Below are positions 36,653 to 64,000 of a stretch of DNA of 64,000 nucleotides, in pieces; the stretch's first letter is position 1, and each line of letters opens with the position of its first letter. The notes below the pieces were generated by a model that saw only the letters and a program-made list of their open reading frames with translations, searched no databases and was not told the origin of the DNA. Origin of the DNA: a virus; the IMG/VR virus record IMGVR_UViG_3300047510_001029, positions 18,150-82,149 of that record, one strand, 5' to 3'. A program made the translations under genes and the position numbers.

Positions 36653-36653
36653 T

Positions 36654-37613: not shown

Positions 37614-38192
37614 ATGAGTGAGTTTGTAAGAAAAGGTTGGTATTATCTTCCTAAAATTATTACACCAGAAGAAGCAATTAGTATCAAGTATCAAAATCTC
37701 TGTGGTGCGATGAGTGACTTAGGTTCTCTTGAAGGACACTGGGATCCAGAGAGAGGTAGAGTATTGACTTGTTATGCTCCACCTTCTTGTGCTTTTGTAA
37801 TGAAAAGAGTTCAACCAATTCTAGAAGAACTACTTGGAGAAGAACTCATCCCATCTTATTGGTTCTCTACAACTTATCATAAAGGTGGATGGATGAACTG
37901 TCATACTGACCGCCCATCTTGTGAAATTTCAGTCACGATGAATATTTGTGGTGATGCTGCGTGGCCTATCAAACTCAAAGACCTGACTGGTAAAAGAAGA
38001 GAAGTCGTCACACCAGTTGGAGATGGTCTTGCTTATCTTGGAACGATTGTACCTCACTGGAGAAGTCCTTTGAGAACTCACGAGAATGACCGCTTTATGC
38101 AGTTGTTCCTACACTTTGTTAGAAAAAATGGTCAGTATGCTGACTATGCTTATGACCGAAATGATAAGTGCTATACCTTACTTACCAACTAA
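37614..38192 (+). CDS. 2OG-Fe(II) oxygenase, prolyl-hydroxylase-like (192 aa)
   Basis: Iron site HxD at His97/Asp99 ('MNCHTDRPSCEISVTM') with distal His148 ('IVPHWR') and Arg160 for 2-oxoglutarate, in a double-stranded beta-helix. Its N-terminus 'VRKGWYYLPKIITPEEAISI' is like other cyanophage P4H-type proteins. The only plus-strand gene in the fibre island; its end overlaps the convergent 220-aa oxygenase by 4 nt. Likely substrate (fibre protein, nucleobase or other) unknown; hydroxylation of a fibre is a working idea. Confidence 0.8.
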   Translation: MSEFVRKGWYYLPKIITPEEAISIKYQNLCGAMSDLGSLEGHWDPERGRVLTCYAPPSCAFVMKRVQPILEELLGEELIPSYWFSTTYHKGGWMNCHTDRPSCEISVTMNICGDAAWPIKLKDLTGKRREVVTPVGDGLAYLGTIVPHWRSPLRTHENDRFMQLFLHFVRKNGQYADYAYDRNDKCYTLLTN

Positions 38193-47747: not shown

Positions 47748-48407
47748 TTACTCTTCTTGATAAACGTGAGAACCGACGTGTGCTAATTTTATAGAAGTAT
47801 TCAACCAAGTTTCATAACCTACACTCTTTGCCCTTTCAAAAAAAGAAAAATCTTCTGGTAAGTAACTCATATCTTTTTTCAGTTCCAGAAAGTAGTGATA
47901 GGAATTATGAAACTCTTTTTCCGTTGGTGGATAAGAACTATTATTCGTTGCGGGATAATATTTCAACTCTTCACCATATTTATGAGAAATACTCTCAAAC
48001 ACTTTGCGATGAATCAAAGCAAAACCAAATCCAATATTTTCAATTTTTACTAAGTCTCCTTCTTTGACTTCTGGTTGTGAGATATTATAATTATAGCGAA
48101 GTGGAATTCCTTTCATTGGATATGCACCACATACAATATCTTTGCGACTCTCAAATAACCTGAAGACATCTTCAGGTGTAAATCCAACATCAGCATCAAT
48201 AAACAGAATATACTCATACTCTGTGTTATTCATAAAAAAGTTTGCAATTCTGGACCTTGCTTTCGTTACAAGACTTTCATTTGCCATCGTCAAAAGTCCG
48301 TGATCTACTCCTGCAGTTCTCAATTCTTTTCCAAGATTGAATAGACCTTTAGCAGTTTTATCACTTACCATTCCACCATAACAAGGCATTGCAATCAATA
48401 CAGACAT
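47748..48407 (-). CDS. GT2-like glycosyltransferase (219 aa)
   Basis: 'SVLIAMPCYGGMVSDKTAKGL' and 'YEYILFIDADVGFTPEDVFRLFE' (DxD) are typical of GT-A enzymes found in cyanophages; 'GFGFALIHRKVFESI' and a late 'HVGSHVYQEE' fit. Small and without membrane helices, so cytosolic. Sits between kelch C and the 1653-aa collagen-like gene. Confidence 0.8.
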   Translation of the reverse strand: MSVLIAMPCYGGMVSDKTAKGLFNLGKELRTAGVDHGLLTMANESLVTKARSRIANFFMNNTEYEYILFIDADVGFTPEDVFRLFESRKDIVCGAYPMKGIPLRYNYNISQPEVKEGDLVKIENIGFGFALIHRKVFESISHKYGEELKYYPATNNSSYPPTEKEFHNSYHYFLELKKDMSYLPEDFSFFERAKSVGYETWLNTSIKLAHVGSHVYQEE

Positions 48408-48430: not shown

Positions 48431-51400
48431 TTATACTATCTTTTTACCAGAAACACAAACGGCAATTGAATTAATTGTAGAAGCAACTGCAACAATACTA
48501 TCGTTTGTCGCAAGGTATTTTGCCTTATCAAGTATTTCAACCACACTATTTTTAGGTATAGTCATATTATATGCTAAGTATCCTTGACGAACACCCGTGG
48601 TTACAATACCTCCTACAGTTCCTCCACGATAAATGGATACTGAAGCATCAATATCAATATTCAAATTGTAATTGATAATACGAACTGATTGAACTGTAGT
48701 TGGATAAGTTGTTGAAGTATAAATCTCAGTTCCACTTGAAGACGTAACTGTTGAACCGACACCAACATAGTTTGTATCAAATTTCTCCGAATAAACAATA
48801 AACGCATCTAATCCACCATCAACACCAGCAGCAGTTGTTCCTACTCCTGCAAGTGCTTGGAAACGAAGAATGTCTGATGGATTGGCAATAATTGGTTGAT
48901 TGAATAATAACTCTGTTGCGCCTTGATAAGGAACAATCACTCTTTGTGCCATTGGAACGTTCAACCAGTTATTTGAGGATTGAAAGAAGTCTTGTCTTGC
49001 GGACAGATAAAGTTCATTACTAAAGACGTTTGTGAAGTGAATTGACTCAACGATATATTTTTTACCAGCAGTTGATGGGAATGAATAAGCAATTCCTGGT
49101 CCAATAAAGATGTCATTATTTCTATTTCTTTGAGAATCTGCTGTTGAAATACCAGCACCGCCAATACCAGTCGCAATACCTGAGGTTACTGAAACATAAA
49201 TGGATGTTGTAATTCCAGTATTATATACTGCGGCTGCTCCTGTTTGTCCTTTTGGTCCAACATTTGCATAAACTTCCCAAGTTGTTCCATCATAAATGAA
49301 ATCAACTGTAATACCTTTGATGTCAAGTACAAAGTCTTCTGTTCCACCTTCAATCGTGGAACTGTTACGACCAATTGTGAGATTATTTGTTTCCCAATCA
49401 GCACCATCAGCAATTCTTACAGAGTTTCCTGTTGTTGGTGATGCTGGAAGAGTGATTGTAAATGCACCACCAGAAGTATCAGCAATCAGTTGATCGCCAG
49501 TTACAGCAGTATAAGTTGTTGTCTTTTTACTCCAAGATGATGTATTACTAGATCCCTGAATACCTTGGATGCCCTGGATTCCTTGAGTACCTTGTGTTCC
49601 TTGTGTTCCTTGTGTTCCTTGGATGCCCTGAATACCTTGAGTACCTTGAGTTCCCTGAGTACCTTGTATTCCCTGAGTTCCCTGAGTTCCTTGGATGCCC
49701 TGGATTCCTTGAGTTCCCTGAGTTCCTTGGATGCCCTGGATTCCTTGAGTTCCCTGAGTTCCTTGGATTCCTTGACGACCTTGAATACCCTGGATTCCTT
49801 GGATTCCTTGAGTTCCCTGAGTACCCTGAGTTCCTTGGATTCCTTGAGTTCCCTGAGTACCCTGGATTCCTTGAGTACCTTGAGTACCTTGTGTTCCCTG
49901 AATACCCTGGATTCCTTGAGTTCCCTGAGTTCCTTGGATTCCTTGACGACCTTGAATACCCTGGATTCCTTGGATTCCTTGAGTTCCCTGAGTACCCTGA
50001 GTTCCTTGGATTCCTTGAGTTCCCTGAGTACCCTGGATTCCTTGAGTACCTTGAGTACCTTGTGTTCCCTGAATACCCTGGATTCCTTGAGTTCCCTGAG
50101 TGCCTTGAGTACCCTGTGTTCCTTGGATTCCCTGGCGACCTTGAATGCCCTGAATTCCTTGAGTACCCTGAGTTCCTTGGATACCCTGAATTCCTTGAAT
50201 ACCCTGGATTCCTTGTGATCCTGCCCCAGCAGAAGACCAACTCACTCCAGCACCAGTTGAGACGAGAACTGAACCAGCAGCACCTACCTGATTATTAAAA
50301 TCATAAAGAGCTCCACGAAGTCTTAGGTTTCCAGATACATCTAATTTTTGTGTTGGGTTTGTGGTTCCAACTCCAGTATTTCCACTATAAGGTGCAAGTT
50401 GAATTGTTCCATCAGCATTTACATCAATACTTGGAATACCAGAAACATCATTAACTGAGAAGATAGAACCAGTAGTTAAATTATTTGTAATACTGAAGAG
50501 TTGTCCGGCAGAACCTTCCCAACTTAGAGTTCCAGAATTTAAAGTATCATAAGGAACAATATCGATAACAGTTCCAATTCCAAGAGCACCAGTAGAAGGA
50601 TTAAATTGAAGTAGTGTATTCCCCACTCCAAGAATTGTAGAAACTCCAGAAGTTACGGTTACAAATCCAATGTATGCGGTTGTATTTGTCGTGGTGTTTG
50701 TAACAGTAAATCCACCATTATTAGCACCTTGAATACCTTGGATTCCTTGAATACCTTGAATACCCTGGATTCCTTGAGTGCCTTGAGTACCTTGAATACC
50801 TTGAGTTCCCTGCGTACCTTGAGTGCCTTGAGTACCTTGAATTCCCTGACGACCTTGAATACCCTGGATACCCTGAATTCCTTGAGTACCTTGAGTTCCT
50901 TGGATTCCTTGAGTACCTTGAGTACCTTGAATACCTTGAATACCTTGAATACCTTGAGTTCCCTGCGTACCTTGAGTGCCTTGAGTACCTTGAATTCCCT
51001 GACGACCTTGAATACCCTGGATACCCTGAATACCTTGAGTACCTTGAGTACCTTGTGTTCCTTGGATTCCTTGAGTTCCTTGAGTTCCCTGAGTACCTTG
51101 AATGCCCTGAATTCCTTGCGTACCTTGTGTTCCTTGAGTACCTTGAGTACCCTGAGTGCCTTGAGTACCTTGTGTTCCTTGGATGCCCTGAATACCCTGT
51201 GTTCCTTGAGTACCTTGTGTTCCTTGTGTTCCTTGTGTTCCTTGGATGCCCTGAATACCTTGAGTACCTTGAGTTCCCTGTGTTCCTTGTATTCCCTGAG
51301 TTCCCTGAGTACCCTGAGTTCCTTGGATTCCTTGAGTACCTTGTGTTCCTTGTGTTCCTTGGATTCCCTGAGTACCCTGAGTTCCTTGGATTCCTTGACG

Positions 51401-53392
51401 ACCTTGGATTCCCTGAGTTCCTTGAGTGCCTTGAGTACCTTGGATACCCTGAATTCCTTGAGATCCTTGGGTTCCTTGAATACCCTGGCGACCTTGAATG
51501 CCCTGAACTCCTTGAAGAGCAGCATTTTGAATTGTTGCTTTTCTTAAAGTAGTTCCATCATTAGTGACATAAAGAAGATAATCGTTTGATGTAGGAGATA
51601 CTTCCGATCTATCAAAAATTAACCCTGGATTTGCAGAACGAATATTGGAGATTGTGACTCCTGTTCCAAGAGTTGTTTCGCTTAATACTGAAGTTCCTGC
51701 AATCTCATATTGTTTACCGGAGGCGACATTCCAATCCTCACTGGAAGTTAATGCGCTTGCGGTATTGTTCCATGTAATTGTCTTACGAATACCAATAGAT
51801 CCAATTCCAATTCCAGCTCCATCAAGAAGTATATTAGTACCTACGGTGGTTGCGATACCAACCTGAGCATCGGCAAGTTCAATAGTAGTGGAATTAACAA
51901 CAAACTGAGTTCCATCTACATAAAGATCACCCTTAATTCTTACTGCACCAGTATCATTCCCAATTGCGGCAGGATCAATTGTAATTTGAGAAGGACCAGT
52001 AATCGTATTACTGTTAATTCCAATACCAGTTCCAGCAGGACCACCGTGCTGTAAAGTAGTTCCATCAAAAGTTAAATTAGCAGATCCCGTTGGATTATTA
52101 GACCCATCCTTATAAACAACTTGATTTGCAGAACCTGCTACGGGACCAGTAATTCCCTGAATACCCTGGATTCCTTGAGTTCCTTGAGTTCCTTGAGTTC
52201 CTTGAATACCCTGAGTTCCTTGGGTTCCTTGGATTCCCTGGCGACCTTGAATGCCCTGAATTCCTTGCGTACCTTGGGTTCCCTGAGTACCTTGGATACC
52301 CTGGATTCCTTGAGTACCTTGAGTACCTTGGATACCCTGAATTCCTTGAGTACCTTGAGTACCCTGAGTGCCTTGAGTACCTTGTGTTCCTTGGATGCCC
52401 TGAATACCCTGTGTTCCTTGAGTACCTTGTGTTCCTTGGGTTCCTTGAGTTCCTTGGATGCCCTGAATACCTTGAGTACCTTGAGTTCCTTGGATTCCTT
52501 GTGTTCCTTGTGTTCCCTGAGTACCTTGAGTTCCCTGGATTCCTTGAGTACCCTGAGTTCCTTGAGTTCCCTGAGTACCTTGAATGCCCTGAATTCCTTG
52601 CGTACCTTGGGTTCCTTGCGTACCTTGGATACCCTGAGTTCCCTGAGTTCCCTGAGTTCCCTGAGTTCCCCGAGTTCCTTGGATACCTTGAATACCCTGA
52701 GTTCCTTGGATTCCTTGTGTTCCTTGTGTTCCTTGTGTTCCCTGGATTCCCTGAATACCCTGGATTCCTTGAGTACCCTGAGTTCCTTGAGTTCCTTGAA
52801 TACCCTGAGTTCCTTGCGTACCTTGGATACCCTGAATTCCTTGAGTTCCCTGCGTACCTTGAGTACCCTGAGTTCCCTGAGTTCCTTGGATGCCCTGAAT
52901 ACCTTGAGTACCTTGAGTTCCCTGTGTTCCTTGGATTCCTTGAGTACCTTGAGTACCTTGGATACCCTGAATTCCTTGAGTTCCCTGCGTACCCTGAATT
53001 CCCTGACGACCTTGAATACCTTGAATACCTTGAAGACCCTGAAGAGCTGCTGTTGCAATTGGAACCCAAGAAACTCCAGCACCAGTTGATGTAAGAACTG
53101 ATGTTGCCGTACCAACTTGATTATTAATGTCATAAAGTCCAGCACGAAGTCTTATATTTCCATTTACATCCAAAAGTTGTGATGGGTTTGTGGTTCCAAT
53201 ACCAACAGAACCACTAATAAAAGCACCACCACCATAAACCTGTAATATCTGTCCTGATGTTCCACTATCTACAAATGTGGTTCCTATACCAACCTTATCA
53301 ACACTTACATATGCCTTATCCTGGAACGCAAGGTTCCCAAGCATACTATTGAGTGGTACTTGATTTGGTCCAGTTCCGTATAGGTTTGCCAT
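48431..53392 (-). CDS. Giant collagen-like fibre protein 1 (1653 aa)
   Basis: N-terminal ~115 residues of fibre type (VGIGTTNPSQLLDVNGNIRLRAG motif). Three collagen-like blocks follow, of ~297, ~263 and ~220 aa, made almost only of Gly-Ile-Gln and Gly-Thr-Gln triplets with rare Gly-Arg-Gln; proline is nearly absent. Globular spacers separate them: a ~200-aa module (DLYVDGTQF ... YEIAGTSVL) and a ~180-aa one (NNGGFTV ... 'GTTNPTQKLDVSGNLRLRG'). The C-terminal ~340 residues are beta-rich (SKKTTTYTAVTGDQLIADTSGG) and may be the tip. The ATG at 53392 is 3 nt upstream of the preceding gene's stop. Confidence 0.88.
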   Translation of the reverse strand: MANLYGTGPNQVPLNSMLGNLAFQDKAYVSVDKVGIGTTFVDSGTSGQILQVYGGGAFISGSVGIGTTNPSQLLDVNGNIRLRAGLYDINNQVGTATSVLTSTGAGVSWVPIATAALQGLQGIQGIQGRQGIQGTQGTQGIQGIQGTQGTQGIQGTQGTQGTQGIQGIQGTQGTQGTQGTQGTQGIQGIQGTQGTQGIQGTQGTQGTQGIQGIQGIQGTQGTQGTQGIQGTQGIQGIQGTRGTQGTQGTQGTQGIQGTQGTQGTQGIQGIQGTQGTQGTQGTQGIQGTQGTQGTQGTQGIQGTQGTQGIQGIQGTQGTQGTQGTQGTQGIQGIQGTQGTQGTQGTQGTQGIQGIQGTQGTQGIQGIQGTQGTQGTQGIQGIQGRQGIQGTQGTQGIQGTQGTQGTQGIQGIQGITGPVAGSANQVVYKDGSNNPTGSANLTFDGTTLQHGGPAGTGIGINSNTITGPSQITIDPAAIGNDTGAVRIKGDLYVDGTQFVVNSTTIELADAQVGIATTVGTNILLDGAGIGIGSIGIRKTITWNNTASALTSSEDWNVASGKQYEIAGTSVLSETTLGTGVTISNIRSANPGLIFDRSEVSPTSNDYLLYVTNDGTTLRKATIQNAALQGVQGIQGRQGIQGTQGSQGIQGIQGTQGTQGTQGIQGRQGIQGTQGTQGIQGTQGTQGTQGIQGTQGTQGTQGIQGTQGTQGTQGIQGIQGTQGTQGTQGTQGTQGIQGIQGTQGTQGTQGTQGTQGTQGTQGIQGIQGTQGTQGTQGIQGTQGTQGTQGIQGIQGIQGRQGIQGTQGTQGTQGTQGIQGIQGIQGTQGTQGIQGTQGTQGIQGIQGIQGRQGIQGTQGTQGTQGTQGIQGTQGTQGIQGIQGIQGIQGIQGANNGGFTVTNTTTNTTAYIGFVTVTSGVSTILGVGNTLLQFNPSTGALGIGTVIDIVPYDTLNSGTLSWEGSAGQLFSITNNLTTGSIFSVNDVSGIPSIDVNADGTIQLAPYSGNTGVGTTNPTQKLDVSGNLRLRGALYDFNNQVGAAGSVLVSTGAGVSWSSAGAGSQGIQGIQGIQGIQGTQGTQGIQGIQGRQGIQGTQGTQGTQGTQGIQGIQGTQGTQGTQGIQGTQGTQGIQGTQGTQGTQGIQGIQGIQGRQGIQGTQGTQGIQGIQGTQGTQGTQGIQGTQGTQGIQGTQGTQGTQGIQGIQGIQGRQGIQGTQGTQGIQGIQGTQGTQGIQGIQGTQGTQGIQGTQGTQGTQGIQGIQGTQGTQGTQGTQGIQGIQGIQGSSNTSSWSKKTTTYTAVTGDQLIADTSGGAFTITLPASPTTGNSVRIADGADWETNNLTIGRNSSTIEGGTEDFVLDIKGITVDFIYDGTTWEVYANVGPKGQTGAAAVYNTGITTSIYVSVTSGIATGIGGAGISTADSQRNRNNDIFIGPGIAYSFPSTAGKKYIVESIHFTNVFSNELYLSARQDFFQSSNNWLNVPMAQRVIVPYQGATELLFNQPIIANPSDILRFQALAGVGTTAAGVDGGLDAFIVYSEKFDTNYVGVGSTVTSSSGTEIYTSTTYPTTVQSVRIINYNLNIDIDASVSIYRGGTVGGIVTTGVRQGYLAYNMTIPKNSVVEILDKAKYLATNDSIVAVASTINSIAVCVSGKKIV
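49555..50217 (-). repeat. Collagen-like block 3 of giant protein 1
   Basis: 9-nt period coding repeat (~220 aa). It contains a higher-order tandem copy: ~49745-49930 and ~49925-50110 are almost identical. Confidence 0.85.
50727..51515 (-). repeat. Collagen-like block 2 of giant protein 1
   Basis: 9-nt period coding repeat (~263 aa). Two internal stretches around 50787-50880 and 50961-51030 share long identical strings, pointing to unequal exchange. Confidence 0.85.
51516..52140 (-). repeat. Inter-collagen spacer module, duplicated at 62206-62834
   Basis: This ~620-nt spacer and the one at 62206-62834 are near-identical over long stretches on DNA level, for example directly after each collagen block (a shared string beginning AGAGCAGCATTTTGAATTG on the plus strand) and around the YEIAGTSVL segment. 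Confidence 0.85.
52150..53040 (-). repeat. Collagen-like block 1 of giant protein 1
   Basis: 9-nt period coding repeat (~297 aa) of Gly-Ile-Gln/Gly-Thr-Gln with rare Arg triplets. Confidence 0.85.
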
Positions 53393-53395
53393 TTA

Positions 53396-53752
53396 TTACC
53401 CGAATATTCTATAAGGTGTCTTGGGATTATCAATTACAAATTGTCTTAGGTTTTCAGCAATATCACCACTTAAAATTCTTACATTAATATGCCAACCATC
53501 AAGTTTTATAGGATCTTCAATTGTAATCATCTCACCTGCTTCATTTGGTTCCCACTTACCACCTTTGTAAATAGTTCCAACTTCATCTATACAATACTGA
53601 TGAGTTGCTGAAATGATATAATCTTCATCTTGATATGCTGTTAAGTTCTCATCAATTTGATAAATTTGTTCTTGCGGCATCGTATATCCAGCAACTTTAA
53701 GTGCCGATAATGCTTCTTCTTTTGATGAAAACTTTAAGTAGTAATCAATCAT
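53396..53752 (-). CDS. Hypothetical protein (118 aa)
   Basis: 'DYYLKFSSKEEALSALKVAGYTMPQEQIYQIDENLTAYQDEDYIISATHQYCIDEVGTIYKGG' and a tail 'KLDGWHINVRILSGDIAENLRQFVIDNPKTPYRIFG'. Single small alpha/beta domain, known (from memory) in cyanophage fibre regions; possibly a fibre chaperone or assembly factor. Preceded by CATAAATA. Confidence 0.65.
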   Translation of the reverse strand: MIDYYLKFSSKEEALSALKVAGYTMPQEQIYQIDENLTAYQDEDYIISATHQYCIDEVGTIYKGGKWEPNEAGEMITIEDPIKLDGWHINVRILSGDIAENLRQFVIDNPKTPYRIFG

Positions 53753-53767
53753 AATATGTTTTATTAG

Positions 53768-53775
53768 TATTTATG
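53768..53775 (-). promoter_or_regulatory. Late promoter-like CATAAATA
   Basis: Minus strand, 16 nt upstream of the ATG at 53752 and overlapping the end of the preceding gene; one mismatch to TATAAATA. Confidence 0.45.
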
Positions 53776-55069
53776 AGGTGAGATTTATGAGTTGTTGATT
53801 GGTGAGTTGGATTGGATAATAGGTGAGACGACTTATGGTTCCGTTTAAATAAGTAACGCCAGTTCCAGGAGCACTACCTATTATGATATTGTTTGGACTT
53901 GTCGGTAATAGAACAGAACTATCAGTTATAGGTGTATTTCCATTAATAGTTCTTGATGCTATAGTTGATGAATAAGAACATCCAGTTTTCATTAATCTAT
54001 TTGCAGAATAAAAGATTGAACCAAGTGTATATACACTTGTTGTTCCGTCCTTAACTATACTTAAAACTGGTGTTCTTCCACCACCAGAAAACAAACGAAT
54101 GTAATTAGATGTTCCAGATTGAGATACAGAAAATAAACCGTGATTTTTAGTTGTATCTGCTACATCTATTTGAATATGACTTGAAATAAAACTTCCTTCG
54201 TTTGAATTAAACCAACTTGAGAAATTAATTCCCTCCATAGAAGCATTATCAGCACTTCTTGTGACTGTAGATGCAGTTGTTGGTATATAAGATGTTGGAA
54301 ATGCTCCTGCTTCTAATTGTGCTCCCCAGATATAGATTCCTGATGTTCCGTCACCTGTATATACTGAGGAATTTGTAATACTGTTAACCAAATAAAGTTG
54401 AATGAATAGAGAAGTAGAGGTATTTGAAGTAACAGTTAGTATTACCCTATACCAATCATTTGGATACTTAACTATTGATGAAGACGCACTGGAAAAACCA
54501 CTTCCATAAGTTCCGGGATTTGAATGAACTGTTCCAGAAACTACATTAAATTCTCCTACAACACCAGAACCACCGGACTCAATTCTTAATCCAACTCTTC
54601 TATTTCCTTTTGATTTTACAAAAATAGAAAAAGTATATGTAATTGATGATGCTGCTTTTGTTATAAATTGATTAAAATAATGGTAGGCATTTGATGTTGT
54701 ATTTTCTATAAATGCATCTGCCGTTGTATTTCCATCAGGTGCAGTAATAAGATTTATAGATATTGCACCACTACCAAGACCGTAAATAGCATTACTAAAA
54801 TCTTGACTATAAGTCAATAAGTTCTGCCTACTCTCCTCAATCAACAATCCCAAACTTTGTCCTGTGATTGGGTCGTGGTCGAATCTTGGTTCATTCGCAA
54901 TAGCAGTTTTCATAAGGCCATCAGGACCAAAATAAGTTCCTGTACTTCCACGAGTGAATGTAATACGTGGGTCTAACTTTTTCGCAAGAGCAAATCTCAA
55001 ATCCAAAGAAGGACGAAGATTTGGAAAATCTGTGTTTTGTGATTGTTTTTGAAGAGAAAGTATAGACAT
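53771..55069 (-). CDS. ConA-like fibre/spike protein, tandem copy 1 (432 aa)
   Basis: N-terminal 'LDPRITFTRGSTGTYFGPDGL' and 'FDHDPITGQSLGLLIEESRQNLLTYS' are the hallmark of a phage fibre family with carbohydrate-binding-module/concanavalin-like domains. The middle (~100-260) is a CBM-like sandwich (NAYHYFNQFITKAASSITYTFSIFV ... GIYIWGAQLEAGAFPTSYIP); the C-terminal ~150 residues are a second sandwich (SADNASMEGINFSSWFNSNEGSFISS). Probably glycan-binding. Two tandem paralogues lie upstream. Confidence 0.8.
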   Translation of the reverse strand: MSILSLQKQSQNTDFPNLRPSLDLRFALAKKLDPRITFTRGSTGTYFGPDGLMKTAIANEPRFDHDPITGQSLGLLIEESRQNLLTYSQDFSNAIYGLGSGAISINLITAPDGNTTADAFIENTTSNAYHYFNQFITKAASSITYTFSIFVKSKGNRRVGLRIESGGSGVVGEFNVVSGTVHSNPGTYGSGFSSASSSIVKYPNDWYRVILTVTSNTSTSLFIQLYLVNSITNSSVYTGDGTSGIYIWGAQLEAGAFPTSYIPTTASTVTRSADNASMEGINFSSWFNSNEGSFISSHIQIDVADTTKNHGLFSVSQSGTSNYIRLFSGGGRTPVLSIVKDGTTSVYTLGSIFYSANRLMKTGCSYSSTIASRTINGNTPITDSSVLLPTSPNNIIIGSAPGTGVTYLNGTISRLTYYPIQLTNQQLINLTS

Positions 55070-55070
55070 C

Positions 55071-56408
55071 TTATTGTGTTAGATATTGAAGTTGATTATC
55101 TTTAAGTCTTCTTGGATAATAAGTAAGTCTTTTTATGTATCCTGATGGTGCCGATTGAAATCTTGAGGCACCATAAATCAACAACTGATTGCAAGTAGGA
55201 ATATCACCACTTCTATCAGTTGCAGGTTTTAATCCATTCACAGTAAATGCAAAATCATCTTTTTTATATGCAAGAATTGCTTTTCCAATTCTTTGAGGAC
55301 TTCCAGATACAGTAGTATCAAAACTATTAAATGTATAAGAACCATCAGGAGAGTATGAAACTGCACCAAAAAATTGGTTTTGCGCTGCTCCTCCAGATGC
55401 AGTTTGTGTATAAATTCTCATTACATTTCTATTTACATCTGTTCCTGTAAGTGAAACAAATGCATCATAAGTAAGTGAAGAACGAGTAGTGATGTTATTG
55501 AGGTCTGCGTATAAGGTTCCCTCACTTGAATTATACCAACTTGAGAAGTTAGTTCCAGTCATAGAAGCAAGGTCAGCAGAACGAGTAACCCTTGAAGCAG
55601 AAGTAGGTATAAAAGAAGTCATAAAAGCACCATTTTCAACTTGTGGTCCAAAGAAATACAAATAAGAATTTCCATCACCAGTATAGTTTCCATAAGGACC
55701 ACCATTATTTCCACCAGAACTAACACTATTTGTAAATCTAAAATCAAATCCAATATTTACAGATGCTGTTGCTGTTGCTGTTGCACCAAATCTCCACCAA
55801 CCATTTGGATATTTTTCTACGAATGTAGTATTTCCAGAACTATTAGATAAAACTCTTCCATTTAGTGGGTCAAAAGTTATAATTTGAAAAGTAGTAAATG
55901 CAGTATTCCAAAATAATATACTAAAATATCTTGGAGCAGAACCAGTTGGTTGCTTTGCAAATACCGAAACAGTATAAGAAGTTCCAGATGCTACAGTTAT
56001 ATTTTGACTAAATCTTCTTCCACTCGCAGTTGTAGTACTTTCAGTAAATTTAATTGTGTTTGTACTTCCGTCTGGAGCAATTTGTGTTGTATCTATACTT
56101 AAAGTACCTGTACCTCCAGTACTCCAACTGGTAGTTACATTTTGTCCCGAATATAACCAATCATTATATCTACTCTCCTCAATCAATAATCCCTTACACT
56201 CACCAGTCACAGGGTCATAATCAAATCTTGGCTGATTTGTATCAACAGTTTCAATCAAACGATTACGATTGACCCGAGTTCCAATACTTCCTCTGGTGAA
56301 TGTAATGCGAGGGTCTAACTCTTCTTGTGTGAAATCCAAATCTAAACTTGGACGACAGATTGGATAATCTAAATCAGTATCACCACGACCTATGAGTATT
56401 TTAGACAT
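55071..56408 (-). CDS. ConA-like fibre/spike protein, tandem copy 2 (445 aa)
   Basis: Same architecture as its neighbours: 'LDPRITFTRGSIGTRVNRNRLIET', 'GECKGLLIEESRYNDWLYSG', a middle CBM-like segment ending 'FFGPQVENGAFMTSFIPTSAS', and a C-terminal part with 'FSSWYNSSEGTLYADL' finishing 'IKRLTYYPRRLKDNQLQYLTQ'. One-nt gap to copy 1, 4-nt gap to copy 3. Divergence in the middle domain suggests different ligands. Confidence 0.8.
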   Translation of the reverse strand: MSKILIGRGDTDLDYPICRPSLDLDFTQEELDPRITFTRGSIGTRVNRNRLIETVDTNQPRFDYDPVTGECKGLLIEESRYNDWLYSGQNVTTSWSTGGTGTLSIDTTQIAPDGSTNTIKFTESTTTASGRRFSQNITVASGTSYTVSVFAKQPTGSAPRYFSILFWNTAFTTFQIITFDPLNGRVLSNSSGNTTFVEKYPNGWWRFGATATATASVNIGFDFRFTNSVSSGGNNGGPYGNYTGDGNSYLYFFGPQVENGAFMTSFIPTSASRVTRSADLASMTGTNFSSWYNSSEGTLYADLNNITTRSSLTYDAFVSLTGTDVNRNVMRIYTQTASGGAAQNQFFGAVSYSPDGSYTFNSFDTTVSGSPQRIGKAILAYKKDDFAFTVNGLKPATDRSGDIPTCNQLLIYGASRFQSAPSGYIKRLTYYPRRLKDNQLQYLTQ

Positions 56409-56412
56409 CTTC

Positions 56413-57750
56413 TTATTGTGTTAGATATACTGCTTGATTATCCAATATTCGTTTTGGATAATAAGAAAGTTTTCTTATAGTTCCGTTTAAATAATTAAAT
56501 CCATTATGAGAAGAACCTATATTTAATGTAGAAAATGTAGATGTAGTTGGTATTCTTGGAATATTTAATCTTGCAAATTGATATTTAATATTTCCATCAT
56601 TAATTGCTATTGCTACACTTTTATTATCAATCATAGCAACACTTTTTATATCTCTAACTTGACTTGCATTTCCAAAAACACCACCAATACTTGTACTATT
56701 ATAGTAAGGTATAACTTGGGGAAGTCCAGCATATCTAAACAGTATTCTTTCGGTGATTGCCGTATTTGTAAGTTGCCAATAGTATGCACCATTATTAGAA
56801 GCATAAGGTGCAACACCAGAAAAGAAAACACTTAAATCTGTTGGAGAACCAAACCAACTCGTAAAATTAGTTCCAGTTATAGAAGCAACATCAGCACTTC
56901 TTGTGACTGATGATGTCGTTGTTGGTATATAAGATGTTGGAAATGCTCCAATCTCATACTGAAGACAAGAAAACTGAAATCCATTTATACCATCAGCATA
57001 ATAAGTTCCTGTTGCACCTGTCGGACTATTTTTTCTACGACACTGAATATAAAATGAAGCACGATTTCTTATTGTTGCTCCTTGAGTATATCTTATACTC
57101 CAAACTACTTTATACATTCCAAAAGGCATTAATGTAATTTGTGGAGCAATCAACTCAGAAAATCCAGATGCACCACTTAAAGATTTGGAAACAATATTTC
57201 CATTTGTTAAATCAGGTAAAAGTTCTGCAAAAATGTAATTTGATGTTCCATCGGTATCAAATTGAATTACAATATCTGGAACATACAAACCATTTCCAAC
57301 TGCAGTAAAATAACCACTAAAAGAAACATCAACTGTTCCACCACTTGCAGCAGTGAATGAATAAGTTGTAAAATTATAAATGGAAGGAAAAACTGCATTT
57401 CCCAAAGTAGGAACAAACTTTTTAGCAGTCACTCCATCAGCACCCGTAGCAGTTCCATCACTTACACTTCCACCATTTCCAAGTTGAGTTCCGTGAAAAT
57501 AATTACTTCTACTCTCCTCAATCAAAAGTCCTCTACACTCACCACTAATCGGGTCATAATCAAATCTTGGTTGATTTGCTGGTGCTGTCTCAATCAATCC
57601 ATTCTTATTCACAAAAGTTCCAATCGAACCCCGAGTGAATGTAATGCGTGGGTCTAAACTTTGAGAGTTTGCAAAGTCTATATTAAGCGTTGGAGATACT
57701 ACAGGTACATCTAAATCAGCACTTTGTATTCCATCTCTTATAATACTCAT
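56413..57750 (-). CDS. ConA-like fibre/spike protein, tandem copy 3 (445 aa)
   Basis: 'LDPRITFTRGSIGTFVNKNGLIET', 'ECRGLLIEESRSNYFHG', then a longer, divergent middle domain (AVFPSIYNFTTYSFTAASGGTVDVSFSGYF) and the shared 'YEIGAFPTSYIPTTTSSVTRSADVASITGTNFTSWF' followed by the second sandwich and 'IRKLSYYPKRILDNQAVYLTQ'. Its start overlaps the stop of the giant collagen-like gene upstream by 4 nt. Confidence 0.8.
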   Translation of the reverse strand: MSIIRDGIQSADLDVPVVSPTLNIDFANSQSLDPRITFTRGSIGTFVNKNGLIETAPANQPRFDYDPISGECRGLLIEESRSNYFHGTQLGNGGSVSDGTATGADGVTAKKFVPTLGNAVFPSIYNFTTYSFTAASGGTVDVSFSGYFTAVGNGLYVPDIVIQFDTDGTSNYIFAELLPDLTNGNIVSKSLSGASGFSELIAPQITLMPFGMYKVVWSIRYTQGATIRNRASFYIQCRRKNSPTGATGTYYADGINGFQFSCLQYEIGAFPTSYIPTTTSSVTRSADVASITGTNFTSWFGSPTDLSVFFSGVAPYASNNGAYYWQLTNTAITERILFRYAGLPQVIPYYNSTSIGGVFGNASQVRDIKSVAMIDNKSVAIAINDGNIKYQFARLNIPRIPTTSTFSTLNIGSSHNGFNYLNGTIRKLSYYPKRILDNQAVYLTQ

Positions 57751-60700
57751 AACGTAATTACCTGCCTCACAACTTTCACATTATTGTTTGGATAGGTTGG
57801 AGTAAGTAGTAATCTTGCATTTGCACCAGAAATATCAGCACTAAAGGTTCCGAGAATATCATTATTTGCAATTCCAGCATATTCAACAAAGTCGGCAGTA
57901 GTTCCATCCTGAAGAACTAAAATATCACTGACTTGATAATTTGTTGAAACTCCCGTGATTGCATTTGTATAAGCAACCTGTCCTCCAGCATTTGAACTGT
58001 TGCGATAGAAACCAATTGCAAGTGAAGTACCAGCAGTAAATGTTATGCCAACTCCAAGTGAAGTTCCAAGAGTAAATGTTGTTGTTGTTGGAATGCTTAC
58101 AACATAATAATCAGTACCAGCGGTTAGTCCATTAGAGGTGCTAGAAGAACGGATAATGTCATTCACAAACAATCCGTGTGCTGTGAGTGATGTGAATGTA
58201 GAAACACCTACAGAACCAGTGATTGTTGTAATCGTATTTGTGAGTGTAGTTCTATCAACTGAAAGGACTGATGCAGTCGAGTAGTTAGAACCAGAATAAT
58301 AAACAGTTCCACCAGTTCCTGTAGTTGGTTGCTGAAGTAATAGGGAACTTGTAATGACTCCATCAAAGATAGTTGCAAGACCCGTAGCAGAAGTTCCAGT
58401 TCCGCCCAAGAATGTAAGAGTTGTAGTTCCGACTCCAACACCAGCGGTATAACCAATACCAACACTTGTGATAGATCCAAGTGTGAGAATTGCACCAGAT
58501 GGGGAAGCAGTAGACCCAACAGAAACTTGAAGTCCTGAACCACCCGACGCTGTGAGAACATCGCCAGCAGCATATCCAGTTCCCCCAGAAATTACACTCA
58601 ATTGTCCTACAGTTCCGTTTGAAATTGTAAGAGTTCCTTGTGCCGCAGAACCATTACCAGAAGAGGTTGTGAAGTTTATATTAAATGTTCCTGCAGTGTA
58701 CCCTCTTCCTCCAGTTGTAATACCACCTAATACTGAAATCTGCCCTGGGCAAGTTAATTGAACGTGATATTTTGCAGAACGGAATGTTGCCGTTGCGAAA
58801 GTATCTACTGCAACTTGGTTGGTGTTTGTGGTTGTGGTGTTTGTAGTCTCAAATGCCAGAGCATCTTTGACTTGTAGAGTTGCTACTGGATTTGTGGTTC
58901 CTATACCAACACCAATAGTATTAATTCTTACTGCTTCGTTTGAAGTTGTATTTAATCCACCCCCAGTATGAATGGTTAAAGTATTTGCTACTGGAACTTT
59001 TAATCTTGGACCACCAGAATTTAACTCAATTTCTGGGTCAGCAGCAGAAAGTCTTATATCACCAGCAACATCTAATTTTGCTCCTGGATTTGTATTACCA
59101 ACACCAAGATTACCAGTTGAAGGATTGAATACTAACTTTGTGGAAGAAACACCAACATTCGTAGAAATGCCAGAAGTTACATCTTCAAATACAATAAATC
59201 GTGCTGCATTTGTCGATTCATCATTAACAACAGTAAATCCACCATTATTATTACCCTGAAGACCCTGTAAACCTTGTGTGCCCTGGGTTCCCTGAGTACC
59301 TTGGATACCCTGAATACCTTGAGTTCCCTGAGTGCCCTGAGTTCCTTGCGTACCTTGGATACCCTGAATACCTTGAGTTCCCTGAGTGCCCTGAGTTCCT
59401 TGCGTACCTTGGATACCCTGAATACCTTGAGTTCCCTGAGTGCCCTGAGTTCCTTGCGTACCTTGGATACCCTGAATACCTTGAGTTCCTTGTGTTCCCT
59501 GAGCACCTTGAATGCCTTGAATTCCCTGGATTCCTTGAATTCCTTGTATTCCCTGGGTTCCCTGGGTTCCTTGAGTACCCTGGATACCCTGAGCACCTTG
59601 AGTGCCTTGAGTGCCTTGAATTCCTTGTATTCCCTGGGTTCCTTGAGTTCCTTGAGTTCCTTGGGTTCCTTGGGTTCCCTGAGTACCTTGGATACCCTGA
59701 ATACCTTGAGTTCCCTGAGTACCTTGAGTACCTTGGATACCTTGAGTACCTTGAGTACCTTGAGTACCCTGAATACCTTGAGTTCCTTGAGTACCTTGGA
59801 TACCTTGAGTACCTTGGATACCTTGAGTTCCTTGAGTACCTTGGATACCCTGAATCCCCTGGCGACCCTGGATACCCTGAGATCCTTGTATACCCTGTAC
59901 CCCCTGAACAGAATTTATATCTAAAGTAATAGTCGCGGTTCCACCAGAAACAGTTGCAGTTATTCCAGCGCCAACAAAATCTAATATTGTTGCGTTACCC
60001 TTTAAATTACCTTCATCTTTAATTGTAATAGAACTTGTTGTTGCGGCACCTGCTGAACTTACTGCACCCCATCCCCAAGTTCCATCTCCATTCGCAATTG
60101 GAACATAAGTTGCTGCACCAAAATCAGTACCATTTGGTGAAATTTTATCTACATCAATAGCATTAATTCGGGTAATATTATCTTCAACTTGAATTCCACC
60201 AGCAGCAAGTCTAACTCCATTAGGTACTTGAGTAGAACCAATACCAACACCATAATTAAATATCCAAGCATCAGTAGTACCAGCACCTAAAGTACCACCT
60301 TTAATCCACATAATTTGCTTATATGTGGATGGAATACTATCAATACCAACAACATCAATATTAATTAAAGGTGTTCCTACTGTAGAGGCAATAGCAATAC
60401 CACCGTGATTTGCAGTTATATCGGTAGAAATATCATTACCAAAAGCATCAGTAGTAATACCAAGTACAATATCTTTATCCTTTACTTTAATTTCATTAAC
60501 GGCCAGGAATGCAGTAGTACCACCAACAGTAATGTTGCCACCAACATAAAGATTGGAACCATCAAAGGTCAGATTATTAGAACCAGTAGGATTATTCGAA
60601 GCATCTTTATAAACAACTTGATTTGCAGAACCTGCTACAGGACCAGTAATACCTTGAATTCCTTGACGACCTTGAATACCTTGAGTACCCTGAGTACCTT

Positions 60701-63700
60701 GGATACCCTGAATACCTTGAGTACCTTGAGTTCCCTGAGTACCCTGGATTCCTTGAGTACCCTGAATACCTTGAGTACCTTGAGTTCCCTGAGTACCCTG
60801 GATTCCTTGAGTACCCTGGATTCCTTGAGTACCTTGAGTACCTTGAGTTCCCTGAGTTCCTTGAGTACCTTGAATACCCTGGATTCCTTGAGTACCTTGA
60901 GTTCCCTGAGTGCCTTGAGTTCCCTGAGTGCCTTGAGTACCTTGAGTTCCCTGAGTTCCTTGAGTACCTTGAATACCCTGGATTCCTTGAGTACCTTGAG
61001 TTCCCTGAGTTCCTTGGATACCCTGAATTCCTTGAGTACCTTGAGTACCCTGAGTTCCTTGGATACCCTGAATTCCTTGAGTGCCTTGTGTCCCCTGTGT
61101 TCCTTGAATACCCTGAGTTCCTTGAGTTCCTTGAGTTCCTTGGATTCCTTGAGTGCCCTGGGTTCCCTGAGTACCTTGGATACCCTGGATTCCTTGAGTT
61201 CCCTGAGTTCCTTGGATGCCCTGAATACCTTGAGTACCTTGAGTTCCTTGAATTCCCTGAGTGCCTTGTGTCCCCTGTGTTCCTTGAGTGCCCTGGGTTC
61301 CCTGAGTACCTTGGATACCCTGGATTCCTTGAGTTCCCTGAGTTCCTTGGATGCCCTGAATACCTTGAGTACCTTGAGTACCTTGGATACCCTGAATACC
61401 TTGAGTCCCTTGAGTGCCTTGCGTTCCTTGGATACCTTGGATACCCTGTGTTCCTTGAGTTCCTTGAGTTCCTTGGATGCCCTGGATTCCCTGGATTCCC
61501 TGAGTACCTTGAGTTCCTTGGATACCTTGAGTGCCCTGAGTACCTTGAGTACCTTGGATACCTTGAGTGCCCTGAGTACCTTGAGTTCCTTGAGTTCCTT
61601 GGATACCCTGGATTCCCTGAGTACCTTGAGTTCCCTGAGTACCTTGAGTTCCCTGAGTTCCTTGGATGCCCTGGATTCCCTGAGTTCCCTGAGTACCTTG
61701 AGTGCCCTGCGTTCCTTGTATTCCTTGGATACCCTGGGTTCCTTGTGTTCCCTGAGTACCCTGAGTACCTTGGATACCCTGAATTCCTTGTGTTCCTTGT
61801 GTTCCCTGTATTCCTTGAGTTCCTTGGGTTCCTTGGGTTCCTTGAGTGCCCTGAGTACCTTGAGTACCTTGAGTACCTTGAGTACCTTGGATACCTTGGA
61901 TACCTTGGATACCTTGAGTACCTTGAGTTCCTTGAGTGCCCTGAGTACCTTGAGTACCTTGAAGTCCTTGTGTTCCTTGGATTCCTTGAGTACCTTGAGT
62001 ACCTTGAGTACCTTGGATACCTTGGATACCTTGGATACCTTGGATACCTTGAGTACCTTGAGTTCCTTGAGTTCCTTGAATTCCCTGAGTGCCTTGTGTC
62101 CCCTGTGTTCCTTGAGTGCCCTGGGTTCCCTGAGTACCTTGAATACCCTGAATTCCTTGAGTACCTTGGGTTCCTTGAATACCTTGAATACCTTGAATAC
62201 CTTGAAGAGCAGCATTTTGAATTGTTGCTTTTCTTAAAGTAGTTCCATCATTAGTGACATAAAGAAGATAATCATTTGCTACTGGTGATACTTCAGGTCT
62301 ATCACTAATAAATCCAGGGTTTGCGTTTCTGATGTTTGAGTTTGTAACTCCTGTTCCAAGAGTTGTGGAAGTTAATACTGAAGTTCCCGCAATCTCATAT
62401 TGTTTACCTGAGGCGACATTCCAATCTTCGCTTGAAGTCAATGCGCTTGCGGTATTGTTCCATGTAATTGTCTTACGAATACTTGTAGAACCAATTCCAA
62501 TTCCAGCTCCATCAAGAAGTATATTAGTACCTACGGTGGTTGCGATACCGATTTGAGCATCAGCGATTTCAACGGTGGTTGAATTAATTGTTGTGGTAGT
62601 TCCATCTACATAAAGATCACCCCTAATTCTTACTACACCAGTATCATTCCCAATTGCGGCAGGATCAATTGTAATCTGCGAAGGACCAGTAATTGTATTA
62701 GTATTAATTCCAATACCAGTTCCAGCAGAACCACCAATTTGAACCGTTGAAGTTGTTTTATCAAATGTGAAGTTAGTAGAAGCTCCAGAAACTCCATTAT
62801 CATTAAAGATAACCTGAGTATTAGATCCAGCAATCGGTCCTACTGTTCCTTGGATACCCTGTGTTCCTTGAGTTCCTTGAGTACCTTGAGTTCCTTGAGT
62901 TCCTTGAGTACCTTGGATGCCCTGGATTCCTTGAGTACCTTGAGTTCCTTGGATGCCCTGGATTCCCTGAGTACCTTGAGTTCCTTGAGTTCCCTGAGTT
63001 CCTTGGATGCCCTGGATTCCCTGAGTACCTTGAGTACCTTGGATACCTTGAATACCCTGAGTTCCTTGAGTTCCTTGGATTCCCTGGATTCCTTGAGTAC
63101 CTTGAGTACCTTGAGTGCCCTGCGTTCCTTGTATTCCTTGAGTACCCTGAGTACCCTGAGTACCTTGGATACCCTGAATACCTTGAGTGCCTTGTGTCCC
63201 CTGTGTTCCTTGGATGCCCTGGATTCCTTGAGTTCCCTGAGTGCCTTGTGTCCCCTGTGTTCCTTGGATGCCCTGGATTCCTTGAGTTCCCTGAGTGCCT
63301 TGAGTACCCTGTGTTCCTTGGATGCCCTGGATTCCTTGAGTTCCCTGAGTACCTTGGATACCCTGAATACCTTGAGTACCTTGAGTTCCCTGAGTACCTT
63401 GGATACCCTGAATACCTTGAGTTCCTTGCGTACCTTGGATACCCTGAATACCTTGAGTTCCCTGGATTCCCTGAGTTCCCTGAGTGCCCTGGGTTCCCTG
63501 AGTACCTTGGATACCCTGAATACCTTGAGTACCTTGAGTTCCCTGAGTGCCCTGGGTTCCCTGAGTACCTTGAGTTCCTTGGATGCCCTGGATTCCCTGA
63601 GTACCTTGGATACCCTGAATACCTTGAGTACCTTGAGTTCCTTGGATGCCCTGGGTTCCCTGAGTACCTTGAGTTCCTTGGATGCCCTGGATTCCCTGAG

Positions 63701-64000
63701 TTCCCTGAGTGCCCTGGGTTCCCTGAGTACCTTGGATACCCTGAATACCTTGAGTACCTTGAGTTCCTTGGATGCCCTGGGTTCCCTGAGTACCTTGAGT
63801 ACCTTGAGTACCTTGAGTTCCTTGGATGCCCTGGGTTCCCTGAGTACCTTGAGTTCCTTGGATGCCCTGGATTCCCTGGATTCCCTGAGTTCCCTGAGTG
63901 CCCTGGGTTCCCTGAGTACCTTGGATACCCTGAATACCTTGAGTACCTTGAGTACCTTGGATACCCTGAATACCTTGAATACCTTGAGTTCCTTGAGTAC
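57747..64000 (-). CDS. Giant collagen-like fibre protein 2, partial (at least 2084 aa)
   Basis: The frame ending at 57747 stays open to the right edge, so the true start is outside the window; there is no in-frame stop between 62441 and 64000, and that stretch is homologous to protein 1. Collagen-like blocks are at about 59257-59910 (~218 aa), 60650-62205 (~518 aa) and 62835 to the edge (>388 aa), all Gly-Ile-Gln/Gly-Thr-Gln. Spacer modules resemble those of protein 1 (DLYVDGT..., YEIAGTSVL, NNGGFTVVNDESTN). The C-terminal ~480 residues are beta-rich with Gly-rich 'GITTGGRGYTAGTFNINF' and 'GGTGYAAGDVLTASGGSG' repeats. Confidence 0.88.
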   Translation of the reverse strand, partial: TQGTQGIQGIQGIQGTQGTQGIQGIQGTQGTQGTQGTQGIQGIQGIQGTQGTQGTQGIQGTQGTQGTQGTQGTQGIQGTQGTQGIQGIQGTQGTQGTQGTQGIQGIQGTQGTQGTQGIQGTQGTQGIQGIQGTQGIQGIQGTQGTQGTQGTQGTQGTQGIQGIQGTQGTQGTQGTQGIQGTQGIQGIQGTQGTQGIQGIQGTQGTQGTQGIQGIQGTQGTQGIQGIQGTQGTQGTQGTQGIQGIQGTQGTQGTQGTQGIQGIQGTQGTQGTQGIQGIQGTQGTQGTQGIQGTQGTQGTQGTQGIQGIQGTQGTQGIQGIQGTQGTQGIQGIQGTQGTQGTQGTQGIQGIQGTQGTQGIQGIQGTQGTQGTQGTQGTQGTQGIQGTVGPIAGSNTQVIFNDNGVSGASTNFTFDKTTSTVQIGGSAGTGIGINTNTITGPSQITIDPAAIGNDTGVVRIRGDLYVDGTTTTINSTTVEIADAQIGIATTVGTNILLDGAGIGIGSTSIRKTITWNNTASALTSSEDWNVASGKQYEIAGTSVLTSTTLGTGVTNSNIRNANPGFISDRPEVSPVANDYLLYVTNDGTTLRKATIQNAALQGIQGIQGIQGTQGTQGIQGIQGTQGTQGTQGTQGTQGTQGIQGTQGTQGTQGIQGIQGIQGIQGTQGTQGTQGIQGTQGLQGTQGTQGTQGTQGTQGIQGIQGIQGTQGTQGTQGTQGTQGTQGTQGTQGIQGTQGTQGIQGIQGTQGTQGTQGTQGIQGIQGTQGTQGTQGTQGIQGIQGTQGTQGTQGTQGTQGIQGIQGTQGTQGTQGTQGIQGTQGTQGTQGIQGTQGTQGIQGIQGIQGTQGTQGTQGIQGIQGTQGTQGTQGIQGIQGTQGTQGIQGIQGTQGTQGIQGIQGTQGTQGTQGTQGTQGTQGIQGTQGTQGIQGIQGTQGTQGIQGIQGTQGTQGTQGIQGTQGTQGTQGIQGTQGTQGTQGIQGIQGTQGTQGTQGIQGIQGTQGTQGTQGIQGIQGTQGTQGTQGTQGTQGTQGTQGTQGTQGIQGIQGTQGTQGTQGTQGTQGIQGTQGIQGTQGTQGTQGIQGTQGIQGTQGTQGTQGIQGIQGTQGTQGIQGRQGIQGITGPVAGSANQVVYKDASNNPTGSNNLTFDGSNLYVGGNITVGGTTAFLAVNEIKVKDKDIVLGITTDAFGNDISTDITANHGGIAIASTVGTPLINIDVVGIDSIPSTYKQIMWIKGGTLGAGTTDAWIFNYGVGIGSTQVPNGVRLAAGGIQVEDNITRINAIDVDKISPNGTDFGAATYVPIANGDGTWGWGAVSSAGAATTSSITIKDEGNLKGNATILDFVGAGITATVSGGTATITLDINSVQGVQGIQGSQGIQGRQGIQGIQGTQGTQGIQGTQGIQGTQGTQGIQGTQGTQGTQGIQGTQGTQGTQGIQGIQGTQGTQGTQGTQGTQGTQGIQGIQGTQGTQGAQGIQGTQGTQGTQGIQGIQGIQGIQGIQGAQGTQGTQGIQGIQGTQGTQGTQGTQGIQGIQGTQGTQGTQGTQGIQGIQGTQGTQGTQGTQGIQGIQGTQGTQGTQGLQGLQGNNNGGFTVVNDESTNAARFIVFEDVTSGISTNVGVSSTKLVFNPSTGNLGVGNTNPGAKLDVAGDIRLSAADPEIELNSGGPRLKVPVANTLTIHTGGGLNTTSNEAVRINTIGVGIGTTNPVATLQVKDALAFETTNTTTTNTNQVAVDTFATATFRSAKYHVQLTCPGQISVLGGITTGGRGYTAGTFNINFTTSSGNGSAAQGTLTISNGTVGQLSVISGGTGYAAGDVLTASGGSGLQVSVGSTASPSGAILTLGSITSVGIGYTAGVGVGTTTLTFLGGTGTSATGLATIFDGVITSSLLLQQPTTGTGGTVYYSGSNYSTASVLSVDRTTLTNTITTITGSVGVSTFTSLTAHGLFVNDIIRSSSTSNGLTAGTDYYVVSIPTTTTFTLGTSLGVGITFTAGTSLAIGFYRNSSNAGGQVAYTNAITGVSTNYQVSDILVLQDGTTADFVEYAGIANNDILGTFSADISGANARLLLTPTYPNNNVKVVRQVITL
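59257..59910 (-). repeat. Collagen-like block nearest the C-terminus of giant protein 2
   Basis: 9-nt period coding repeat; a ~63-nt unit is repeated in tandem three times or more between ~59285 and 59480. Confidence 0.88.
60650..62205 (-). repeat. Longest collagen-like block of giant protein 2
   Basis: ~1.55 kb of the 9-nt period repeat (~518 aa), with longer identical sub-blocks such as 61021-61110 versus later copies. Confidence 0.88.
62206..62834 (-). repeat. Inter-collagen spacer module, second copy of 51516-52140
   Basis: Second copy of the spacer in giant protein 2, flanked by collagen blocks just as in protein 1. The part nearest the right edge (FTFDKTTSTVQIGG versus LTFDGTTLQHGGPAG) has diverged. 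Confidence 0.85.
62835..64000 (-). repeat. Upstream collagen-like block of giant protein 2, cut by window edge
   Basis: 9-nt period coding repeat to the right edge, with super-repeats of ~90-110 nt (for example around 63160-63350). Confidence 0.88.

Follow-up and report, generated by a model that had tools for sequence, protein, structure and literature searches.

Long, nearly proline-free Gly-X-Gln blocks in two tail-fibre genes of a T4-like cyanophage

The usual account of collagen stability rests on proline, hydroxyproline and charge pairs. In a 64,000-nucleotide stretch of the IMG/VR virus record IMGVR_UViG_3300047510_001029 (positions 18,150 to 82,149, hereafter the window), two minus-strand genes, named here gene A and gene B, carry six unbroken Gly-X-Y blocks of 73–174 triplets each (219–522 aa) in which proline and charge are nearly absent. 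The locus raises the question of what kind of protein these blocks belong to, and what could hold them together.

The six blocks together comprise 639 triplets, of which 371 are GTQ, 236 GIQ and 11 GRQ, the remainder being a few GLQ, GVQ, GSQ and GAQ plus end triplets. The Y position is about 98% Gln, and Thr occupies at least half of the X positions. Proline occurs three times (GPV, GPV and GPI), each time in the final triplet of its own block, and the charged residues amount to 12 Arg, with no Lys, Asp or Glu. An earlier note on this DNA had described six long blocks almost entirely of Gly-Ile-Gln and Gly-Thr-Gln, without proline or charged pairs, and these counts bear it out. Glycine at every third residue over such unbroken lengths makes the blocks collagen-like, and they lack the Pro/Hyp or charge-pair stabilization that is usual, though not obligatory, in collagen-like proteins. 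The Pfam collagen model exceeded its cut-off at 40 places, a score that mirrors the Gly pattern more than the fold, and a PDB sequence search with block A1 returned only collagens, matched by composition. Computed at 0.286 nm per residue, the blocks would form rods of 63–149 nm if triple-helical, in agreement with the previously proposed 60–150 nm for blocks of 220–520 aa. Prolyl hydroxylation was considered and rejected: 2OG-Fe(II) oxygenase genes are present (38189–38851), but the blocks offer no proline substrate. Separately, all 11 GRQ triplets were found to be flanked by GIQ on either side, a rule that does not hold in the wider viral set of 273 listed runs described below.

Gene A (48431–53392, minus strand) is an open reading frame encoding a tail-fibre protein of 1653 aa with three Gly-X-Gln (GXQ) shafts. 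Its N-terminal head domain (53039–53392), 70–81% identical in the viral loci L021–L026 and weakly matched by tail-fibre PHROGs, is followed by block A1 (52139–53038, 100 triplets), spacer A_i1 (51512–52138), block A2 (50720–51511, 88 triplets), spacer A_i2 (50222–50719), block A3 (49547–50221, 75 triplets) and a C-terminal region with the tip (48434–49546, tip proper 48434–49216). Spacer A_i1 opens with the cap AGSANQVVYKD..LTFDG, matches structural PHROGs, and is 82% identical to spacer B_i1 of gene B and 46–68% identical to other viral fibres, while modules of A_i2 recur at 63–77% identity in other viral fibres and S-SKS1. AlphaFold monomer models of the tip (pLDDT 38) and a spacer (pLDDT 36) were too low in confidence to use.

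Gene B (57747–63998, minus strand) is likewise an open reading frame for a tail-fibre protein, and its 5′ part lies past the contig end. It consists of block B1 (62832–63992, 129 triplets up to the contig edge), spacer B_i1 with its cap (62202–62831), block B2 (60636–62201, 174 triplets), spacer B_i2 with its cap (59904–60635, modules 58–89% identical in other viral fibres), block B3 (59247–59903, 73 triplets) and a C-terminal region (57750–59246) that is 67–98% identical in L020–L026. A complete copy of 2722 aa, with blocks of 169, 174 and 73 triplets, lies at 3332–11506 of L020. If fully triple-helical, the shafts of gene A would total about 226 nm and complete gene B would form a rod of about 357 nm.

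The source virus is a T4-like cyanophage whose gp32 is 80% identical to that of Synechococcus phage S-SRM01. T4-like structural genes lie in the window, the adjoining tail proteins belong to phrog_5939, and the spacers of both genes match tail-fibre, baseplate and virion-structural PHROGs. The collagen blocks therefore adjoin phage fibre domains and sit among tail genes, as in phage collagen-like tail fibres, which upholds the proposal of collagen-like tail-fibre shafts divided by non-collagen caps. IMG/VR relatives have spacers and tips in common with genes A and B, and other long viral GXQ proteins also bear tail-fibre modules. Tips 60–66% identical to that of gene A (L012–L019 and S-SKS1) sit on quite different shafts, and in L014 a B-like N-terminal half is fused to an A-like tip. 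The range first assigned to the fibres, 48431–64000, does hold all six blocks, but it also includes four non-collagen genes (53396–57750) and misses two short GXQ stretches, which form the stalks of small minus-strand fibre genes with glycine-rich domains (35765–36652 and 36654–37535).

The repeat unit in the DNA is nine bases long, and stretches of at least 150 nt recur exactly inside and across blocks. Given that fibre modules are also shuffled among relatives, the blocks might be read as mainly a DNA-level satellite that expands by recombination and encodes a disordered, flexible linker whose fold is not under selection. Yet Gly and Gln persist unchanged through hundreds of triplets despite variation at synonymous positions, and thus the pattern is maintained at the protein level; the order of X residues is non-random and is not mirrored at synonymous Gly sites. 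These features rule out a pure satellite. The same GXQ rule also governs fibres with quite different X residues, and block lengths are identical in a second contig, so that we regard even the broader satellite reading as highly improbable. That contig, the separately binned L020/L011 (IMGVR_UViG_3300044701_002547), also rules out an assembly artefact: the B blocks show 0 differences over 3384 nt compared, and gene A has 5 mismatches in 4959 nt, all close to the N-terminus and none in the blocks. The nine-base unit leaves every frame open through the blocks, but only the minus-strand frame connects them to conserved domains. As for the order of Ile and Thr, the pooled spectrum peaks at 4.65 triplets with a power just above the shuffle limit, and other phages have other orders; we therefore claim no helical meaning for it.

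The blocks are not unique to this phage. Viral scans yielded at least 120 loci, and the matches listed gave a set of 273 different GXQ runs, spread over 99 loci. Across these 273 listed runs Y is Gln in 94.3% of triplets and Pro makes up 2% of X, which can otherwise be nearly any residue (Thr, Leu, Val, Asn, Ile and Phe among them); long runs of GVQ or GFQ occur in viral relatives. The median Pro per triplet is 0.00 in the viral runs, against 0.37 in comparable bacterial GXQ runs. We define here a viral Gly-X-Gln class by more than 90% Gln at Y and less than 2% Pro; the blocks of genes A and B fall within it, and 34 of 120 GXQ loci among the matches listed do so with less than 5% charge as well. 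The blocks thus belong to a class that is widespread among viruses and whose constant is Gln at Y, not Thr. No description of such a class was found in the open-access literature on proline-free, Gly-X-Gln or cyanophage collagens. The "extreme length" first ascribed to the blocks is relative: 4% of the viral GXQ runs listed have 174 triplets or more, and the longest listed, in L210, reaches 370.

Hydrogen bonds or glycosylation of Thr had been suggested as stabilizers. Among the 273 listed viral runs, however, 99 have less than 10% Ser/Thr at X together with less than 2% Pro; Thr glycosylation therefore cannot be the class-wide stabilizer, and neither it nor Thr hydrogen bonding survives as a general mechanism. 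In the present phage, Thr is frequent at X and a glycosyltransferase-like gene of uncertain role (phrog_1574; 47748–48407, minus strand) directly follows the gene A tip. Sugars stabilize the BclA spore collagens, and this enzyme might similarly glycosylate X-position Thr. Such a gene follows the A-type tip in every collagen-bearing tip locus (the window, L012, L013, L014 and L015–L018), with copies about 83% identical in L012–L018 even where the fibre is less conserved, and in the two tip loci that lack collagen, L019 and S-SKS1, a 2OG-Fe(II) oxygenase takes its place. The tips of these two are near-identical, however, which makes the exchange one event; the enzyme's closest outside relative (52%, in L355) lies in a kelch-like/sulfotransferase/glycosyltransferase cassette without collagen, and the same cassette is found in the window. 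In described Thr-rich collagens, moreover, Thr stands at Y, not at X as here. We consider glycosylated rods in this phage unlikely.

We favour, as probable, a reading in which the products of genes A and B are modular and probably trimeric tail fibres, with globular spacers and tips alternating with collagen-type shafts that rest on Gly, on Gln(Y) contacts and on globular caps. Gly at every third residue would allow three polyproline-II chains to pack, and the Y-Gln side chain could contact both the backbone and the X′ residue of the adjacent chain. This one set of contacts, repeated along the rod, would substitute for Pro/Hyp and salt bridges and leave X mostly free (Thr/Ile in the present blocks). 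The recurrent caps, ..ATIQNAALQ before a block and ..GPVAGSANQVVYKD..LTFDG after it, may fix the chain register and keep the trimer together. Polyproline-II helices do not favour Thr, Ile or Val, and bare GTQ/GIQ rods may therefore be weakly stable unless capped or modified. In Pro/Hyp-rich host peptides, an axial Gln(Y)–Phe(X′) pair is known to stabilize the triple helix (PMC9599227). The shafts may serve as very long spacers that hold the tips off the baseplate, and may also supply the repeats through which tips and spacers are swapped.

The absent proline, the beta-branched X residues and the long GVQ/GFQ runs of relatives are odd for a classical collagen, and the two short GXQ stalks of this phage attach to glycine-rich domains. 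The shafts might then be another polyproline-II/polyglycine-II assembly, like the adhesin bundles of phage S16-type gp38. But single-chain bundles need turns every few triplets and none occur in blocks of up to 174 triplets, or in the listed run of 370, and phage fibres are usually trimers; we judge this quite unlikely. More tentatively than for the trimeric fibres themselves, we suggest that viral Gly-X-Gln could be a separate collagen class that arose in viruses of bacteria, in which a network of one Y-Gln per triplet would suffice without Pro, Hyp, charge or Thr, X would be free, rods could span hundreds of nanometres, and helix geometry might differ from that of animal collagens.

A viral class nearly without Pro, Hyp and charge provides natural sequences for asking what suffices for a triple helix, and GXQ sequences, if stable, would be simple recombinant collagen materials for which hydroxylation is unneeded. 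For phage biology, the estimated lengths suggest very long cyanophage shafts with swappable tips.

The difference from known collagens holds up. In viral collagens described previously, Pro fills 22% and Asp/Glu 35% of X positions, and Arg/Lys 38% of Y positions (Ghosh 2012, PMC3368898). The EPclPs of E. coli O157:H7 prophages resemble A and B in being phage tail-fibre proteins whose Gly-X-Y shafts lie between phage-fibre domains, and are trimeric with a shaft melting at 42 °C; in them Pro accounts for 48% and Asp/Glu for 36% of X, and Arg/Lys for 31% and Gln for 14.5% of Y (PMC3368898), whereas in A and B Pro and charge are near zero, Y is almost always Gln and the blocks are much longer. FibU of S. 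aureus phage 80alpha (PMC7048315) and P5 of PRD1 also place a Gly-X-Y stretch in a virion fibre, but the FibU stretch of about 31 residues, like one of about 18 residues in a capsid protein (PMC8968730), is very short by comparison. Synechococcus phage DSL-LC02 (OR032571) has proline-poor GTQ/GTT shafts and the same post-block cap (86% over 29 aa), but its shafts are shorter (up to 55 triplets) and Y is often Thr; other viral relatives carry Leu, Val, Asn or Phe at X. The bacterial Scl1/Scl2 and Lcl collagens and the Paenibacillus-type GPQ/GDQ collagens share long Gly-X-Y repeats, the last also with Gln at Y, but they are Pro- and charge-rich cell-surface proteins with no non-collagen domain in common with A and B. 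NCBIfam Scl/Lcl matches fall on the repeats, the best stretches (675–900 and 1056–1280 of gene A) being collagen blocks, and in place of the family-specific domains and cell-wall anchor the non-collagen parts match phage families. The long tail fibres of T4 (gp34–gp37) are long and trimeric and have weak PHROG links to the A and B spacers, but their shafts are beta-structured and those of A and B are Gly-X-Gln.

The virus record is 82149 bases long, and the window spans its bases 18150-82149. Its gp32 protein (18416-19333) shares 80.5% identity with gp32 of Synechococcus phage S-SRM01 and about 75% with those of P-SSM2 and S-SKS1. Together with the T4-like hub-lysozyme and the matches of the inter-block spacers to tail-fibre, baseplate-wedge and virion-structural PHROGs, this marks the virus as a T4-like cyanophage and A and B as tail-fibre genes; the host is presumably that of its relatives.

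Gene A (48431-53392, minus strand) encodes 1653 aa with blocks of 100, 88 and 75 uninterrupted Gly-X-Y triplets, while gene B (57747-63998, minus strand), open at the contig end, encodes 2083 aa with blocks of 129, 174 and 73 triplets, the first of which, B1, is cut by the contig end. As the earlier note had described, these six blocks consist almost entirely of GTQ and GIQ (371 and 236 of 639 triplets) and are nearly devoid of proline, with no charged pairs: Pro occurs three times, always in the final triplet of a block, Arg 12 times, and Lys, Asp and Glu never in the 639 triplets. The range 48431-64000 assigned to the fibres does hold both genes, but it also takes in four other genes located between A and B and misses two smaller Gly-X-Gln (GXQ) proteins at 35765-37535. 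Three tandem paralogous tail proteins (phrog_5939; 53771-55069, 55071-56408 and 56413-57750) lie between A and B, and such paralogues are also in tandem in loci L020-L026. The two smaller proteins (35765-36652 and 36654-37535) are paralogous fibres (phrog_863) with a short GXQ stalk and a glycine-rich domain that gives weak Gly_rich_2 matches, and they recall gp38-type adhesins.

In another IMG/VR contig, IMGVR_UViG_3300044701_002547 (L020/L011), the B blocks compared show no nucleotide differences from the window, and gene A shows five, none within the blocks. Since this independent contig carries identical blocks, the blocks are real. Gene B is complete there (2722 aa; 169, 174 and 73 triplets), and at 0.286 nm per residue the rods would measure ~357 nm in B (complete copy) and ~226 nm in A, provided that they are triple-helical throughout.

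The 639 triplets are encoded by 54 distinct nonamers, with variable third codon positions and constant Gly and Gln. Ile and Thr are not randomly arranged at X (9 isolated Thr observed vs 59 expected), and their order has no mirror at synonymous Gly sites. A pure DNA satellite would give neither this synonymous variation around constant Gly and Gln nor a non-random X order unmirrored at Gly sites; the GXQ pattern is maintained at the protein level. Mostly, II or I is followed by TT-TTTTT, isolated T being avoided; GRQ triplets have GIQ neighbours on both sides in 11 of 11 cases, and the Ile/Thr orders differ in other phages. Codon usage in the blocks also departs from that elsewhere in the viral genes (Ile ATC 58% vs 15% and ATA 3% vs 27%; Thr ACT 77% vs 44%; Gln CAG 38% vs 21%).

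The blocks are connected by recurrent modules. In three cases the sequence that follows a block opens with GPVAGSANQVVYKD..LTFDG or a close variant, and AALQ is frequent as the final residues before a block. Identity is 82% between spacers A_i1 and B_i1, and 46-68% between these two and spacers of other viral contigs. The C-terminal tip of A is found on very different shafts across loci: in L014 the N-terminal half is B-like but the tip is A-like, and L019 and S-SKS1 have the tip without collagen. The modules are exchanged.

A glycosyltransferase gene (47748-48407) follows the A tip, as it does in all tip loci with collagen, while in the collagen-free tip loci a 2OG-Fe(II) oxygenase gene (2OG-FeII_Oxy_5; L019, 8779-9360; S-SKS1 locus L027, 1272-1853) takes its place. 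This swap suggests that the phage enzyme may modify the fibre; however, the two exceptions have tips near-identical to each other, and the nearest outside relative of the enzyme (52%, L355) sits in the same kelch-like/sulfotransferase/glycosyltransferase cassette without collagen. In the window, three paralogues of ~620 aa with YGYFGGG repeats (phrog_19111; 38876-40717, 41553-43421 and 45882-47744; the single copy tested has Pfam kelch repeats) alternate with glycosyltransferase and sulfotransferase genes, and the cassette recurs in L015 and L019, two contigs that carry the tip. The sulfotransferase (40718-41548), which is conserved near the fibre genes in related phages at 73-78% identity, may modify host or virion glycans.

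IMG/VR was sampled by two scans of at least 120 loci each; because the sample order may be non-random and related contigs were retained, the figures are indications, not rates. Among the matches listed, 40% of runs with 60 or more Gly triplets, whatever their type, held less than 0.02 Pro per triplet, many of them being Gly-(Ser/Thr)-Ser, as did 74% of loci with at least 30 consecutive GXQ triplets; the longest run reached 370 triplets, all GXQ, with no Pro. A second proline-free viral repeat class, Gly-(Ser/Thr)-(Ser/Asn) (L083, L103, L116, L087 and L097), reaches 329 triplets among the matches listed. The matches listed include 273 distinct viral GXQ runs from 99 loci, with 15,216 triplets in all. 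Gln occupies Y in 94.3% of these, and the residues at X include Thr (21%), Leu (16%), Val (13.5%), Asn (12%), Ile (10%), Phe (5%) and Pro (2.1%). Bacterial and archaeal genomes gave 83 stretches of the same pattern, many from Paenibacillus and relatives with GPQ/GDQ/GEQ. With GQQ runs left out, median Pro per triplet was 0.37 in these vs 0.00 in the viral matches listed, and 6 of 58 vs 76 of 97 fell below 0.02 (Fisher p = 3e-17). Tail-fibre modules are also present on several other long GXQ proteins. A and B are collagen-like phage tail fibres of a Gly-X-Gln type without proline. This type is widespread among viral contigs; an open-access literature search found no description of Gly-X-Gln viral collagens as a class.

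Prokaryotic and viral collagens are stabilised by Pro at X and by charge (PMC3368898; PMC13138384), and sugars on Thr are a third means (PMC8968730). All three fail for the class, since there is almost no Pro or charge here and Ser/Thr at X is missing in 99 of the 273 viral runs among the matches listed, so that Thr glycosylation, proposed earlier as one possible stabiliser, does not hold for the class. The constants across the viral class are Gly and a Y-position Gln. In a triple helix, the Y side chain touches X' (axial) and X (lateral) of adjacent chains. For an axial Gln-Phe pair within a Pro/Hyp-rich host peptide, a crystal structure and melting data show a stabilising effect (PMC9599227). 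We infer that a Y-Gln network, together with trimeric caps, would hold the rods together. This idea is testable because the cultured Synechococcus phage DSL-LC02 (OR032571) carries proline-poor relatives of these fibres, which are shorter and have the same cap.
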